From NCBI GenBank assembly GCA_900555195.1, contig USKC01000086.1:1-10598 (forward strand): DNA of 10,598 nt. Reading direction: 5' to 3'. The position numbers and the translations under genes were made by a program. The DNA comes from an uncultured Lachnospiraceae bacterium (GTDB lineage: Bacteria; Bacillota; Clostridia; Lachnospirales; Lachnospiraceae). This document shows positions 4,916-10,598 of the stretch, one piece after another. Under the pieces are notes generated by a model that did no database searches, was not told where the DNA came from, and saw nothing but the letters and a program-made list of their open reading frames with translations. The first letter of the stretch is position 1, and every line of letters begins with the position of its first letter.

Positions 4916-4944
4916 ACTATATCACAGGAAAAAGGCCGCGTCAA
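4916..4944 (-). promoter_or_regulatory. Promoter of the rpmG-secE-nusG-rplK-rplA operon
   Basis: TTGACG (4939-4944), a 17-nt spacer and TATAGT (4916-4921). The expected start near 4909 leaves a leader of about 70 nt, A/U-rich with a U8 run (4883-4890), before rpmG. No other promoter-like pair of this quality was seen between it and rplK. Confidence 0.8.
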
Positions 4945-5097
4945 GTATTTTGCCGGATTTTGTGGCAGTTTGGTTATTGCTCAGCCCTTTGCACATGCCG
5001 TTCCGTCTCCCTTGTTTGTGACGCCTGGTTCCCCAGGCACGGGCATCCGCCTTCTGCGGCGCAGGGTTCGGCCGCATTCTTTTCCGCAAACCACTTT

Positions 5098-5239
5098 AAA
5101 AATTGGCTGTTTCTAAGCCTTGCATGTGGGAGGTTCACCCGCATGGCGGCTAAACTCCGCCCCTATGGGGCGTCAAACAACGCCGCCAGAGCGTGCGGGT
5201 GAACTTCCCGCGTGCAAGGCTTAGAAACAGCCAATTTTT
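5098..5239. repeat. Large palindromic repeat element, copy 1
   Basis: Two 46-nt arms (5098-5143 and 5194-5239) pair over their whole length: 43 Watson-Crick pairs and 3 G-U pairs. The outermost 27 pairs are perfect. Inside the arms is a second stem GGCGGC (5145-5150) with GCCGCC (5182-5187). A terminal hairpin CGCCCC-TAT-GGGGCG (5158-5172) sits within it. Unpaired A-rich internal loops flank the hairpin (5151-5157 and 5173-5181). Weaker pairing may continue to about 5084 and 5253. A run of five T closes the stem on both strands, so it could act as a two-way terminator. A related copy lies at 10303-10446 in the same orientation. No coding frame or target duplication was recognised. Confidence 0.88.
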
Positions 5240-5365
5240 GAAGCGGCATGCGGCAGAAGGGATACAGCCGTCCCCCGCGGCCATTCAGCCGGGCCAGGGA
5301 AGAAACCGGCGCGTACAAAGGGCATGTCCCCTCCCTCTGCGGGCCTATCCAACGGAAAATTTCAA

Positions 5366-7036
5366 CTAGCTGTTTGAACGGTTATTAACCTTCTGAAAGA
5401 TCAGGTACAGCAGGATCAGGATCCATGCTGCGGCGAGGAAACCAAGCAGCGCGACGGCCGTTGCGGGCAGAGGGCCAAGATCCGTTTTGCCTCCTCCCTG
5501 GGCGGCGGCAGTTTCATCTAAGTGGTACAGGGATGTCATGTCCGCATACAGTGCATCCATATAGGCGTCATCCACGGTTTCCTTCCGGCGGGTGGATTTT
5601 GCCACTTCTTCGATGAGCGATCCGGCCGCATCGCGCAGGGAAGTGGAGCCGTTGAATACGGGGGTCGTAAAGGTGTCCTGCGCGTGTTCCAGCAGGAGCT
5701 TTGCCGCTTCGATTTTCACATCATAATAGGTATCGTTGTCTTCTCCTGCGCGGGACAGATAATCCTGATATTCTGCAGAATTCTGTGCCTTGGTGGTGAC
5801 GGGCACATACCCTTCGGTCTGGGAATAGGGGATCTGCACGTCGTTGGATAAAAGGTACTGTACGAACAGCCAGGACGCCAGGACTTCCTGGGGATTTTCC
5901 TTATTGAAGATGCAGACGCTGGGCCCCTGGGAAATCATCTGCGGGTTCTGTGTATCATACTGGGGCAGCATCATGACCTCTGTCTCAAAATCCACCACCG
6001 AATCTTCTGAGATGTCGGACAGCGGCGCATCGCTGCCCATCCAGGTCGCGCCAGCGGTGGAATCGATGGCAAAAATGCATTGGCCCGCGTTCAGGAAGTT
6101 GGCGGGATAGCCGGAGATCTTGAACGTGGAAAAGGCGCCGGTTCCTACATGTTCCGCGACTGTATAGAGGAACTGCGTGGTGGTGTCGTTGAAAAGCTGG
6201 ATTTCTCCGCTTTCTGTGGAGTAACCCGCATTCTGCTGCTTCAGAACCTGAATCATCATGTTATCGGTGGATTTGTAGATAAAGGGGATCATGACCTCAT
6301 CATTGTTGAGGGCGAATGTCCCGTCCGCATTTTTTTTGGTGGCTGCTTCGGAGACCTCCCAGATAAAATCCCAGGTCAGGGTTTCAGGAAGGGTGTAGCC
6401 GAGCGCTTCCACATAGGTTTTATTCACATAACAGGCTTCCGTGGAACGCATGAAAGGCAGCGCATAGGTATGACCGCCGATGGTGCATTCTTCCAGAAAC
6501 TGCGGAATGATTTCCTCCTTTGTGGGAGAGTCGAACAAAAGGGCGCTTCCGCCCAGGCCGTATTCCGGATTGTCGAGCAGGGCATCCAGGGGAACTACCA
6601 CATTTTCACCGGTCAGGTAAGTGGCGATGTGATCCGGATAGGTGATGCAGACATTCGGCGTGGTACCTGTGGAAATGTTGGTGATCACATCATTATAAAT
6701 TTTTCCATAATCGGTATACAGGCGTAGGGTGACGGTGATGTTCGGATACAGCGCTTCAAAATCAGCGATGGCCTGCTTATAGATCTCTGTCTGCCGGACA
6801 TTGGTGTCGTTCTTGGCCCAGAAGGTAATCTCGAGCGGTTCTGTGGTATCGAAGCTTTCCGGAACCTGGAAGGCGGTCTGTTCCCTGCTGCCGTGACAGC
6901 CGGTGAAAGAAAACAGGCACAGAAGAACCAGAAGAAGCCCTGAAAGCCTTTTTCCGGAAAACAGCCGTCCGGACAGGGCGGTAAAAATGGGGGAAAAGAG
7001 CGTTGATGCACATCTTCCCGTTTGATTGCGTTTCAT
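5366..7036 (-). CDS. Extracellular solute-binding lipoprotein of a carbohydrate ABC importer
   Basis: A 556-residue family 1 solute-binding protein (MalE/UgpB-like). A long basic N-region (1-30), a hydrophobic core and the lipobox FTGC put the lipidated cysteine at C47. The binding domain starts ITFWAKND and continues with FEALYPNITVTL, a TTPNV/YPDHIATY segment, YALPFMRSTEACYVNK and a Gly-Pro-containing hinge near SQGPSVCIF. Unusually, the C-terminus carries a second predicted membrane helix (about 525-547) with a short basic tail, which would anchor the protein at both ends. The ATG overlaps the permease 2 stop as ATGA, implying coupled translation. The ligand (sugar, oligosaccharide or glycerol-phosphate type) cannot be assigned. 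Confidence 0.9.
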   Translation of the reverse strand: MKRNQTGRCASTLFSPIFTALSGRLFSGKRLSGLLLVLLCLFSFTGCHGSREQTAFQVPESFDTTEPLEITFWAKNDTNVRQTEIYKQAIADFEALYPNITVTLRLYTDYGKIYNDVITNISTGTTPNVCITYPDHIATYLTGENVVVPLDALLDNPEYGLGGSALLFDSPTKEEIIPQFLEECTIGGHTYALPFMRSTEACYVNKTYVEALGYTLPETLTWDFIWEVSEAATKKNADGTFALNNDEVMIPFIYKSTDNMMIQVLKQQNAGYSTESGEIQLFNDTTTQFLYTVAEHVGTGAFSTFKISGYPANFLNAGQCIFAIDSTAGATWMGSDAPLSDISEDSVVDFETEVMMLPQYDTQNPQMISQGPSVCIFNKENPQEVLASWLFVQYLLSNDVQIPYSQTEGYVPVTTKAQNSAEYQDYLSRAGEDNDTYYDVKIEAAKLLLEHAQDTFTTPVFNGSTSLRDAAGSLIEEVAKSTRRKETVDDAYMDALYADMTSLYHLDETAAAQGGGKTDLGPLPATAVALLGFLAAAWILILLYLIFQKVNNRSNS

Positions 7037-7908
7037 CCTTTCATACCTCCTCTTGATACGCCGGCCATGATCTGTTTGCGGAATATCAGGAACAGCACGA
7101 TCAGCGGAACGGAAATGACGACGACGGCGGCCATCATTGCGGGGATATTTTCCCGGCCGAAGCCGTTTTCCCGAATTTCCTGTATTCCGTTGGAGACCAG
7201 GAAATAGGCCGGATCATCTGTAATCAGCCTGGGCCATACATAGGAGTTCCAGCATTCGATCATTTTCAGAATGGTGATGGTGACCAGGGTCGGCTTACAG
7301 ATCGGGATCATCACCTTGAAAAGGTATTTCAGGTCAGAAGTGCCGTCCACCTTGGCGGCGCGGTAGAGCTCGTCCGGGACCTGTTCAAAGTTTTCCTTGA
7401 GCAGATAGATATAAAAAACAGAGGTGACGGACGGCAGGATCAGGCCGAGAAAGGAATTGCGCAGATCCAGGTTGGTGATGGTGACGAAATTGGTGATAAC
7501 AACCAGTTCGTTCGGAATCATCATCAGAGAGAGGAAGAGCGTGAAAAGAAGATCCTTTCCGCGGAAATTGAGCCTGGCAAAGGCATAGGCTGCCAGCGTG
7601 CTGACGATGACCATGAGCGCTGTGGTAGCAAGGGTGAAAATCAGCGTATTCAGAAGATACCCGCAAAGCGGCACTGTGGTGAATGCATCCCGATAGTTCT
7701 GGAGCGTGGGGGAGAGGGTGAAAAAAGTCGGAACATGCTCCGCATTATAAGAACTGTAGCTTTTCACCGAGGTCAGAAGCATCCAGTAAAAAGGAAACAG
7801 GACGATAATGGCCCATACGCTAAGAAGCAGATAAGTGAATGCTTTTACCGCCCCATCCCGCCAGGACGCGGCCTTTGATATGGTAGATTCAGTATGCTGT
7901 GGTTGCAT
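7033..7908 (-). CDS. Carbohydrate ABC transporter permease 2 (MalG/UgpE-like)
   Basis: A 291-residue inner-membrane permease with about six helices. The cytoplasmic EAA loop (about 180-206) reads ELYRAAKVDGTSDLKYLFKV followed by MIPICKP and docks on the ATPase. A first helix near 24-46 and the NYRDAF segment are typical of the MalG/UgpE half of CUT1 systems. The ATG follows AAGGAGG by 6 nt, and that site overlaps the permease 1 stop. It overlaps the binding-protein start by 4 nt. It is expected to form a heterodimer with the permease encoded upstream. Confidence 0.93.
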   Translation of the reverse strand: MQPQHTESTISKAASWRDGAVKAFTYLLLSVWAIIVLFPFYWMLLTSVKSYSSYNAEHVPTFFTLSPTLQNYRDAFTTVPLCGYLLNTLIFTLATTALMVIVSTLAAYAFARLNFRGKDLLFTLFLSLMMIPNELVVITNFVTITNLDLRNSFLGLILPSVTSVFYIYLLKENFEQVPDELYRAAKVDGTSDLKYLFKVMIPICKPTLVTITILKMIECWNSYVWPRLITDDPAYFLVSNGIQEIRENGFGRENIPAMMAAVVVISVPLIVLFLIFRKQIMAGVSRGGMKG

Positions 7909-7919
7909 TGTGCGCCTCC

Positions 7920-8810
7920 TTAATTGACAGACCGTTTTCGGCTGACCAGAAGATTGATGCAGGTGATGGTGAGGACGATGGCGAACAGAAGGATGGCTGC
8001 CGCCGATGCATAGGACGGATAACCGCCGCTGTCACCATAGAGCATGTCGTAAACGTATCCTACAATCGTATTCATCCCTGCCGCATTCAGATCCGTGCCG
8101 AACAGCGCCACCGCGTCGCTGTACGCCTTAAAGGCGCCTATGAATCCCGTGATCACCAGATAAAAAATCATGGGAGAGATCATCGGGAGCGTGATCCGCA
8201 GAAATGTCCGCAACTTGGAAGTGCCGTCCACGCGCGCGGCTTTATAGTAATCCGGGTTAACAGAGGCCAGTGCGCTGGTCAGAATGAGGATCTTAAAGGG
8301 CATAACCACCCAGATGGTGTAGAAGCACAGGACGAACATCTTCGCCCAGTAGGGCCCGTTAATGAAGTCCACGCCTGTTCCGCCGAACCACTGGATGATC
8401 AGATTGATCAGGCCGTCTGTATACTCTGTTTTTTGAAACAGCACCATGAAAACCAGTCCCACGGCAAGGGTATTGGTCACATAAGGCAGGAAATAGATGG
8501 TCTGGAACAGCTGCCGCAGAGGGCGGATGGAACTTAAACCCACGGATATCAGGAGCGCAAGCCCTGTGGAAAGCGGGACAGTGATGATGACCAGGATAAA
8601 TGTGTTGCGTACGGCCTGCAGGAAATAGGGATCGTGCAGGACATAGGAATAATTATAGAGTCCCACCCCATAATAGGTCTGGGAAGCGAAATTATAAGCT
8701 TCCTCCACGGAATAGATGAACACATCAATCAGCGGATAGACCATGAACAGGACGAGAAAAAGGAGCGAAGGCAGAAGATACAGCCAGGCCTTGTGATTGT
8801 TTTGATTCAT
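7920..8810 (-). CDS. Carbohydrate ABC transporter permease 1 (MalF/UgpA-like)
   Basis: A 296-residue permease with about six membrane helices. It starts MNQNNHKAWLYLLPSLLF, the usual UgpA-type first helix. Its EAA loop (about 188-212) reads YYKAARVDGTSKLRTFLRIT followed by LPMISP. The frame stays open 22 codons further upstream, but the ATG at 8810 has AAAGGAG 8 nt before it and gives the normal family N-terminus. It lies 69 nt after the ATPase gene and 11 nt before permease 2. It pairs with permease 2 to form the transmembrane channel. Confidence 0.93.
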   Translation of the reverse strand: MNQNNHKAWLYLLPSLLFLVLFMVYPLIDVFIYSVEEAYNFASQTYYGVGLYNYSYVLHDPYFLQAVRNTFILVIITVPLSTGLALLISVGLSSIRPLRQLFQTIYFLPYVTNTLAVGLVFMVLFQKTEYTDGLINLIIQWFGGTGVDFINGPYWAKMFVLCFYTIWVVMPFKILILTSALASVNPDYYKAARVDGTSKLRTFLRITLPMISPMIFYLVITGFIGAFKAYSDAVALFGTDLNAAGMNTIVGYVYDMLYGDSGGYPSYASAAAILLFAIVLTITCINLLVSRKRSVN

Positions 8811-8879
8811 GAAATGGACTCCTTTCCAAACGCGATACAGTCCGGATGGATCCGGGCTAGGGCAAAATGCTTTCAAAGA

Positions 8880-9980
8880 TCAGGAATCAAAAAGGATGCG
8901 TTCCTGCGTATCCTTGGAAAACAGGAAAACTTTTCCGGGTTTTAATGCGAAGCGCACCGTCTCTTTGGCGGCATCCACGCTGCTTTCCGTGTTGATGATG
9001 GAACGCACAGTCTCTCCCTGACAGGCGCTGTGTGTGGAAAGAATGCTGATATCCCGTCCCATGACCTCCACGCGGCCAAGGCGGCAGCTAAGCGGCCCGT
9101 CCGAACAGGGAAGAAAGCCTTCCGGACGGATCCCGACCCAGACTTCTCCGTCTGCGGCGCCCGGCACGGGAAGAACCGCTTCCGTACCGATATAGAGCTG
9201 CCCATTTCGGATCGAACCATCGAAGACATTGATGGGAGGAGTGCCGAGAAATTTGGCCACGAACAGGTTTCGGGGCTCGTCGTAGACCTCCTGGGGCCTG
9301 CCGGCCTGCATCAGCAGACCGTCCTTCATCACCGCGATCACATCGCAGATACTCATGGCTTCTTCCTGATCGTGGGTGACGAATACCGTCGTGATCCCGG
9401 TTTCCTGCTGGATCCTGCGGATTTCCTCCCGGGTCTGCAGGCGCAGGCGGGCATCCAGATTGGACAGGGGCTCATCCAGAAGGAGGACGCCGGGCATCTT
9501 CACCAGGGCGCGGGCAATGGCCACCCGCTGCTGCTGCCCGCCGGACAGTTCCTTGGGCCGCCGGTCAAGCAGGCCATCGATCTGTACCAGACTGGCCGCT
9601 TCCAGCGCGCGCCTGCGCATCTCCTCTTTGGAGGGCCGATCCTTTCCCTTCAGATTTTCCAGGGGAAATAAAATATTCTGCATTACGCCAAGATGCGGAT
9701 ACAGGGCGTAATTCTGGAACACCATGCCCACTCCCCTGCGCTCCGGAGGCAGGGCGGTCACATCCTGGCTGCCGAAGAAGATTTTGCCTTCCGTGGGTTT
9801 CTCCAGACCACAGATCAGATTCAGCGTGGTACTTTTCCCGCATCCGGATGGCCCGAGCAGCCCGACCAGCTTCCCGTCCGGGATTTCAAAGGAAAGGTCA
9901 TTCACAGCGATGACCTCTTCCGGATTTTTTCTGCCCCGCCCGGGGAATTTTTTTGTGAGATTCTGCAATACGATTTTCAT
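8880..9980 (-). CDS. Carbohydrate ABC transporter ATPase (UgpC/MalK/MsmX-like)
   Basis: A 366-residue ATPase with complete ABC motifs: Walker A GPSGCGKST (43-51), Q-loop Q89, signature LSGGQQQRVAIARAL (145-159), Walker B VLLLDE (165-170), D-loop SNLDA (173-177) and switch histidine VTHD (H203). The C-terminal part (about 235-366) resembles the TOBE/MOI regulatory domain of sugar importers. Two in-frame ATGs exist. The second (9980) is chosen because GGAGG sits 5 nt upstream, whereas the first (9992) lacks a site and lies within that region. It is the first gene of the operon. Many Firmicutes CUT1 operons lack their own ATPase and share one such as MsmX, so this system appears self-sufficient. 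Confidence 0.95.
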   Translation of the reverse strand: MKIVLQNLTKKFPGRGRKNPEEVIAVNDLSFEIPDGKLVGLLGPSGCGKSTTLNLICGLEKPTEGKIFFGSQDVTALPPERRGVGMVFQNYALYPHLGVMQNILFPLENLKGKDRPSKEEMRRRALEAASLVQIDGLLDRRPKELSGGQQQRVAIARALVKMPGVLLLDEPLSNLDARLRLQTREEIRRIQQETGITTVFVTHDQEEAMSICDVIAVMKDGLLMQAGRPQEVYDEPRNLFVAKFLGTPPINVFDGSIRNGQLYIGTEAVLPVPGAADGEVWVGIRPEGFLPCSDGPLSCRLGRVEVMGRDISILSTHSACQGETVRSIINTESSVDAAKETVRFALKPGKVFLFSKDTQERILFDS

Positions 9981-9992
9981 TTCTTCCTCCAT

Positions 9993-10016
9993 TCCCAGGC
10001 GCTTAAACGCTTGGGA
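9993..10016 (-). promoter_or_regulatory. Leader hairpin just upstream of the ATPase ribosome binding site
   Basis: In the leftward RNA, TCCCA-A-GCG pairs with CGC-C-TGGGA (8 pairs, one A-C mismatch) around a 6-nt loop. It ends 3 nt before the GGAGG of the ATPase gene. It could tune translation, but there is no U-run, so it is not a terminator. Confidence 0.45.
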
Positions 10017-10097
10017 CGTATACAGATCAGAGAGAAGGCGTTTCCTTTTCCTTTATTGCCGCCTCCACATCCAACAAAGATTTATACATCTTTCTCG

Positions 10098-10126
10098 ATT
10101 ATAGCGGATTTTTATCCGGTTCTCAA
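10098..10126 (-). promoter_or_regulatory. Promoter of the ABC importer operon, with internal palindrome
   Basis: TTGAGA (10121-10126), a 17-nt spacer and a perfect TATAAT (10098-10103). The spacer contains CGGAT-AAAA-ATCCG (10105-10118), a perfect 5-bp inverted repeat that could be a repressor operator. The transcript leader would be about 110 nt. No regulator gene lies in the window. Confidence 0.78.
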
Positions 10127-10302
10127 GGTGCGAGGCATAAGTAATTGGGTTCCGTAATGGGGGCCCGGGCTCCTGGGGGTGTTTCACGGGATGGTAACGG
10201 GGAGCCTGTGCACGATCAAGCCCCTGCGCCCGCCCCTCAGACAGCGCCCTGCCGCCCGTGATTCCTTTCGGGCACGGCCATCCGTTCGCCATGGCCACCT
10301 CG

Positions 10303-10446
10303 AAAATGGGCTGTTTCTAAACGTTTGCAAAAGGGGCGTTCTTCCGCGTGGCGGCTGAACTCCGCCCTGCCGGGCGTCGGACAACGCCGCCAGGGCGTGC
10401 GGAAGAACGTTCCGTTCACAAACGTAAGAAACAGCATCATTTTTTC
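10303..10446. repeat. Large palindromic repeat element, copy 2
   Basis: Same layout and orientation as the copy at 5098-5239. The outer word GGCTGTTTCTAA and its partner AAGAAACAGC are shared. The stem contains a perfect 11-bp section (10337-10347 with 10399-10409). The core again has GGCGGC (10350-10355) pairing with GCCGCC (10386-10391) around a CGCCC/GGGCG hairpin. Core loop sequences are almost identical to copy 1, while mid-stem sequences differ but still pair. Weaker complementary arms extend to about 10265 and 10480. Pairing in the outer half has a few mismatches, so this copy is less perfect than copy 1. Confidence 0.85.
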
Positions 10447-10598
10447 CCAGGTCCGGGTGAATGGACACCTGTGCCGAAAGAAGTCCCCGGACAGCCGAAA
10501 GGACAGGCCCCCCTCTTGTGAAAAGGAACCTTCGAGAACAGGCCCGTGCGGGAAGGGGAGAAAATTGCTTTCCGTGATTTTTCACCCTGCAAATAAAG

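Follow-up and report, generated by a model that had tools for sequence, protein, structure and literature searches.

Interrupted palindromes with a common asymmetric apex in intergenic DNA of a Lachnospiraceae bacterium: candidate ERIC-like repeats

The 10,598-nucleotide contig USKC01000086.1 (assembly GCA_900555195.1; here ‘the window’, meaning the whole stretch of DNA analysed) is a piece of Lachnospiraceae chromosome in which a ribosomal-protein cluster is followed by an ABC transporter unit, all on the − strand, and it holds two large palindromic elements, E1 and E2. These have in common an asymmetric apex of ~50 nt and part of an inner stem, they carry A- and T-tracts at the foot, and further copies are found on public contigs. 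The reading we favour, and to which we give about an even chance, is that E1 and E2 are palindromic repeats of Eisenbergiella-related Lachnospiraceae, comparable to ERIC, which act as bidirectional terminators and whose arms are kept complementary by template switching or conversion; the likeness to ERIC would be one of kind, not of membership.

An earlier note on this DNA had placed palindromes at 5098–5239 and 10303–10446, and both are present there; a gapped pattern of their core occurs twice in the window and in none of 200 shuffled windows. E1 spans 170 bp as an interrupted palindrome, with arms longer than first noted (60 nt each, 88% complementary, with 50 nt between them). The parts of the two elements, none of them assigned to a strand, are as follows.

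5098–5239: E1 inner hairpin, with an A-tract and a T-tract at its foot; fold z −17.4 on the + strand and −14.5 on the − strand
5084–5143: E1 left arm, pairing with 5194–5253
5194–5253: E1 right arm, pairing with 5084–5143
5144–5193: E1 apex, an asymmetric core of two internal-loop strands, a terminal hairpin and a 5-nt bulge (columns 51–100 of the E1/E2 alignment)
10303–10446: E2 inner hairpin; fold z −8.3 on the + strand and −8.1 on the − strand
10321–10347: E2 left mid arm (27 nt, 81% complementary), pairing with 10399–10425
10399–10425: E2 right mid arm, pairing with 10321–10347
10349–10397: E2 apex core (columns 51–100 of the alignment)

Minimum free energies were −110.6 kcal/mol for E1 on the + strand and −101.4 on the − strand, and −77.7 and −76.7 kcal/mol, respectively, for E2; in each of these four folds, 0/200 shuffles folded as well. 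The elements (inner hairpins of 142–144 nt, G+C 54–56%) are short (<500 bp), non-coding and intergenic: five open reading frames (ORFs) that overlap them had no Pfam match at E 0.01, and the Pfam-supported genes of the window lie outside them.

Aligned with each other, E1 and E2 were identical at 107/152 columns (apex 42/50, left arm 28/39, right arm 26/38). The core had been described as almost identical, which is true of the quoted core words, common to both copies, but not of the apex as a whole, which is just modestly more conserved than the arms. The internal-loop strands TRAACTC and GTCRRACAAC are largely fixed between copies, and both hairpins have extrahelical bases in common. The longest run common to the outer parts of the two inner hairpins, GGCTGTTTCTAA, stands at the left ends of E1 and E2; their right ends differ, and the right end of E2 departs from its own left end.

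That the mid-stems differ yet pair with themselves was borne out. In a structure of 47 pairs, which we assembled from those common to both folds and in which 97.9% of cells pair, six pairs had changed on both sides and remained paired, three showed a one-sided change to G-U, and two were broken in one copy. Sliding the 3′ partner by 1–3 columns left 0 or 1 double changes, and shuffled 3′ letters reached the observed number in 5/500 trials, a weak control with two sequences. Across all pairs of either fold, E1 alone could form 14 and E2 alone 7. Figures of this kind, drawn from two sequences, describe covariation but hardly test it. The three non-Watson–Crick positions of the long E1 stem are, as the earlier note had it, G-U pairs on the + strand, and a fourth G-U pair lies further out; on the − strand the three positions are A-C. 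Since the genes are on the − strand, and since E1 also folds less well on that strand, the G-U argument for an RNA is weak.

The compensated differences are thus real, but they do not justify the inference drawn from them earlier, that the fold is under selection. In yeast, template switching from one inverted-repeat arm to the other homogenises the arms and can invert the spacer (PMC8604942); such a process could make compensated changes without any selection on a fold, so these changes alone are no proof of RNA selection, and two DNA copies are too few for any test to tell the two causes apart. RNA selection is possible, yet it is not needed to explain the pattern. Compensated stem changes are commonly taken to prove a functional RNA; here they can also arise by arm-to-arm copying, which makes the family a cautionary example for RNA discovery by covariation, as well as a natural case in which to measure the persistence and renewal of long palindromes in bacterial chromosomes.

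Because gene callers can call ORFs over such elements, a protein collection was searched with the non-coding frames of the window. Further copies, on which the earlier note had made its reading depend, do exist: nine spurious ORFs on public contigs (P0121–P0129; eight from ENA, P0128 from NCBI, several on contigs under 1 kb) were placed by tblastn on E1 or E2. Three proteins came from one search and six from another, in each case all the candidates it gave. Their E-values ranged from 5.5e-16 to 0.45 in searches of 5.8 billion proteins; with the window alone as target, the best for each protein lay between 2e-62 and 7e-15. Apex sequence was present in 8/9, P0123 consisting of arm and flank only. 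The outer left flank of E1 has matches in six of them (P0121–P0124, P0126 and P0127). The matches of P0125 and P0129 take in sequence beside E2 as well, and P0129 agrees with the E2 locus at 68% over 78 residues. P0124, P0126 and P0127 share the reading frame of the E1 apex, and the right-arm residues KKQHNF(L/I)TGLRKKNAA recur in all three, while P0128 and E2 have the same 16 residues read over the apex. The left part of P0126 is foreign, and P0126 carries a stretch typical of a sequencing adapter. P0128 (163 aa, from a contig of 13,198 bases) has two tandem copies of the first apex half in its frame, MAAKLRP and then AWRLNSALPG, which suggests a partial duplication inside the apex.

Some of these copies are palindromic well beyond the inner hairpin. 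Self-pairing of eight ORFs that cross the apex was judged by codon degeneracy, that is, by what the codons allow, against 40 shuffles each. The arms were codon-compatible in P0127 (score 110.7, shuffle maximum 21.6; 188 positions, three incompatible, one gap) and in P0128 (score 125.9, shuffle maximum 17.7; 184 positions, ten incompatible, two gaps), so that both are imperfect palindromes, about 440 nt long with roughly 70 nt at the apex, which run some 140–150 nt past the ends of the inner hairpin. In both, pairing continues to the start of the ORF, and the palindrome may extend further. The outer arms of P0129 also pair (43.5, shuffle maximum 17.8). One further feature of the window, again without strand, enters this comparison.

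4946–5083: E1 outer left flank, like the outer arms of P0122, P0123, P0124 and P0127

The sequence of this flank is palindromic in P0127 but not in the window. Twelve outer arms were compared with one another (12 shuffles per pair, cut-off a margin of 4 over the best shuffle; P0121, P0126 and P0129 omitted). Those of P0122, P0123, P0124, P0127 and the left side of E1 were mutually alike, and E1-type copies may represent one locus in related species. The outer arms of P0128 (which pairs with itself), P0125 and E2, together with the right flank of E1, resembled no other set at the cut-off. The elements are dispersed, with two loci in the window and outer arms in P0128 unlike those of either, and the evidence points to related apices framed by three or more kinds of outer arms.

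The orientation of the apex may also vary. P0125, from a contig of 900 bases, matches the + strand of the window at 10301–10480 and, further along the ORF, the − strand down to 10056; relative to the window it thus combines the E2 flank, on the − strand, with an apex of opposite sense, and its other side is like neither E2 flank at the cut-off. This mixture of strands may reflect inversion, recombination between copies or misassembly. A flip of the apex at the E1 locus was considered and dropped, P0124 and P0126 being readable as right arms in unflipped order, so that P0125 alone still suggests one.

Bidirectional intrinsic terminators consist of a stem with an A-tract before it and a T-tract after it, in the spacers between transcription units, and E1 and E2, stems between units with tracts on either side, are alike in this. 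On the + strand the stem runs into the T-tract as CAGCC-AATTTTT in E1 and CAGCATCATTTTTT in E2; the E2 T-tract is weaker on the − strand (CATTTTCG). Two promoter-like sites lie close by.

4916–4944, − strand: promoter-like site of sigma-70 type, TTGACG-17-TATAGT (10/12 consensus), upstream of the rpmG ORF and directly beyond E1
10098–10126, − strand: promoter-like site of sigma-70 type, TTGAGA-17-TATAAT (11/12 consensus), between E2 and the ABC ATPase gene

Both are consensus matches only, the best of six found. E1 has the stop of the ABC unit (5366) on one side and the first site (4944–4916) on the other. E2 is upstream of the second (10126–10098), the promoter-like site of the ABC unit, and what follows E2 falls outside the window. 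On the − strand from the stop of the solute-binding protein gene (5366) to the site at 4944, the scan found no other terminator-like site. An element transcribed in a spacer between gene units would form a hairpin followed by a U-tract, a putative intrinsic terminator on either strand; E1 would then end the ABC-transporter unit ahead of the rpmG promoter, which, if true, explains how that unit is insulated from the ribosomal-protein unit. An interrupted palindrome of this kind offers scope for template switching or conversion from arm to arm, which would at least in part preserve pairing between the arms as their sequence diverges from locus to locus, and may now and then flip the apex. Inverted duplication seeded by an interrupted palindrome would be another route to self-complementary arms that differ between loci; such events can start from interrupted palindromes 85 or 246 bp long in Escherichia coli without SbcCD and RecA (PMC3315005).

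Several observations weigh against a family of terminating repeats with arms maintained in this way. The U-tracts are modest, a 46-bp stem with internal loops exceeds what a terminator needs, and the terminator scan, whose loop limit is 8 nt, scores neither E1 nor E2. Shuffled sequences gave a mean of 4.1 promoter-like sites against the six found, so that it is only by the quality of their match that the two promoter-like sites stand out. The margin of conservation of the apex over the arms is small, as noted above, and the outer flanks in the window pair no better than chance (39/500 shuffles reach the E1 score, 31/500 that of E2). Among the further copies, P0121 and P0122, with a short left arm, exceeded shuffles over just 24 and 21 positions, and self-pairing of P0124 (which has almost no left arm), P0125 and P0126 was not above shuffles; P0125 may be misassembled, and only two copies are represented as DNA, the others as protein translations.

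Of the other explanations, a non-autonomous element resembling a miniature inverted-repeat transposable element (MITE), about 142 bp long with ends GGCTGTTTCTAA and TTAGAAACAGCC and moved by a transposase encoded elsewhere in the genome, is possible though doubtful. The run common to the outer parts of both inner hairpins would serve as its end, the copies lie in different contexts, and size (under 500 bp), intergenic place and stable hairpin agree with published MITEs such as SPRITE and QMITE2, among which terminator-like examples are known (PMC10969869). However, direct repeats within 8 nt of the assumed ends were not above chance: the best at E1 was 4 nt (AATT, inside the palindrome), E2 had none of at least 4 nt, and 400 random border pairs most often gave 4. 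Such repeats are said to fade with age and may be lost from old copies (PMC10969869), but the right end of E2 also departs from the left, P0127 and P0128 remain palindromic some 140–150 nt past the proposed ends, and a G+C of 54–56% is unlike the MITEs of that account, which are typically AT-rich. Lacking direct repeats above chance, E1 and E2 are filed not as MITEs but under the broader heading of intergenic palindromic repeats. Selection on the fold of a structured RNA or cis-regulatory element, with the apex internal loops as the functional site, would account for loop strands that stay largely fixed while stem pairs change in compensation; we consider it unlikely, given that neither copy has an Rfam family at cut-off, that one copy follows the ABC unit and the other precedes it, that the E1 fold is stronger on the strand opposite the genes (and E2 about equal on both), and that homogenisation of the arms would yield the same pattern.

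The imperfect hairpins, with extrahelical bases common to both copies, also recall DNA read in single-stranded form by a Y1 transposase, whether REP-associated or of IS200/IS605 type. This is hardly probable at all: no such gene was present among the Pfam-tested ORFs of the window, and the inner hairpins are far longer than the palindromes of 20–40 bp given for REP elements (PMC3733652). It is decidedly improbable, too, that only the inner hairpins are real and that fold-back or faulty assembly produced the long palindromes seen on public contigs. The strand mixture of P0125, the several contigs under 1 kb and the adapter-like stretch in P0126 are what such artefacts might leave; a fold-back would, however, pair perfectly, and the imperfection of P0127 (at least three incompatible positions) and P0128 (at least ten), with gaps, argues against it, as does the recurrence of the right-arm residues in P0124, P0126 and P0127. 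Finally, a reading we hold to be quite unlikely is that of a repeat defined by its centre: a mobile apex of ~50 nt that would use local DNA to build and maintain a palindrome around itself, through hairpin-primed inverted duplication together with homogenisation of the arms. If true, this would mean locus-specific arms of up to about 190 nt around a single apex able to flip, and would reverse the usual layout of MITEs, in which the ends are conserved and the middle is free.

ERIC, also known as RU-1, is a large imperfect palindrome. Like it, E1 and E2 are intergenic, non-coding and of similar size (the RU-1 repeat is given as 127 bp; PMC2759123), a likeness drawn without sequence comparison; unlike it, they belong to another phylum, some copies reach about 440 nt, and the outer arms vary by locus. 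From bidirectional terminators they differ in the length of the stem and in the asymmetric apex, neither needed for termination, and from REP elements in the size of their inner hairpins. The interrupted palindrome of E1 resembles those that seed inverted duplications in E. coli, although the events described there require loss of SbcCD and RecA and duplicate large parts of the chromosome (PMC3315005).

Searches of known families agreed with the earlier note, which had not recognised the elements: no Rfam family reached its gathering cut-off for either copy, and MIR9555 on the − strand of E1 (39.7 bits, E 1.8e-4, against a cut-off of 119) was taken as a chance match to a long hairpin. Among the open-licence papers listed, by titles and abstract openings, none was recognised as describing the family. 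By blastn, E1 against phages, E2 against plasmids and extended E2 against phages gave nothing beyond chance. Matches judged to be chance were those of seven Streptomyces plasmids over 31 nt (E 0.04 with E1, 0.1 with extended E1), one Pleomorphomonas plasmid (E 0.4, extended E1) and, by tblastn of P0128 against phages, three records (E 0.2–0.5); tblastn of P0127 against plasmids found none. The Streptomyces matches cover a piece of the E1 apex, 5157–5187, at 91% identity. In viral contigs the core pattern occurred in no stretch and P0127 and P0128 had no relative; GGCGGCTNAACTCCGCC occurred in 44 stretches, two of them with GCCGCC within 45 nt downstream and neither matching the covariance model, an outer-stem pattern in 37 (partner arm within 200 nt in 0/37), and a right-hand core pattern in one, which did not match the model. 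Genome contigs gave seven stretches, none from Lachnospiraceae by title and all folding within about 1.5 sd of shuffles; the covariance model matched in 0/7 of their genomes, all unrelated, an uninformative result. Run on the window and 10 of 89 loci, the model finds E1 and E2 on both strands and, elsewhere, three weak fragments in loci L001 and L002 (E 0.9–2.3).

All ten Pfam-supported genes of the window are on the − strand. Its remaining features are these.

rplJ (L10), − strand: identified by profile search
738–895, − strand: L10 leader RNA (RF00557, 57.5 bits, above gathering), upstream of the L10 gene
1094–2419, − strand: gene of the PGA_cap family (capsule synthesis protein), by Pfam
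rplA, rplK, nusG and secE, − strand: Pfam-supported
rpmG, − strand: read from the ORF alone, without profile search
5366–7036, − strand: extracellular solute-binding protein gene (PF13416/PF01547), with E1 directly downstream of its stop

Among the 120 relatives listed for the solute-binding protein, the two that carry an organism name are Eisenbergiella proteins, at 78% and 77% identity, which suggest an Eisenbergiella-related source, no more firmly than two identities allow. The PGA_cap gene sits amid the ribosomal-protein cluster, between the L10 gene and rplA–rplK.

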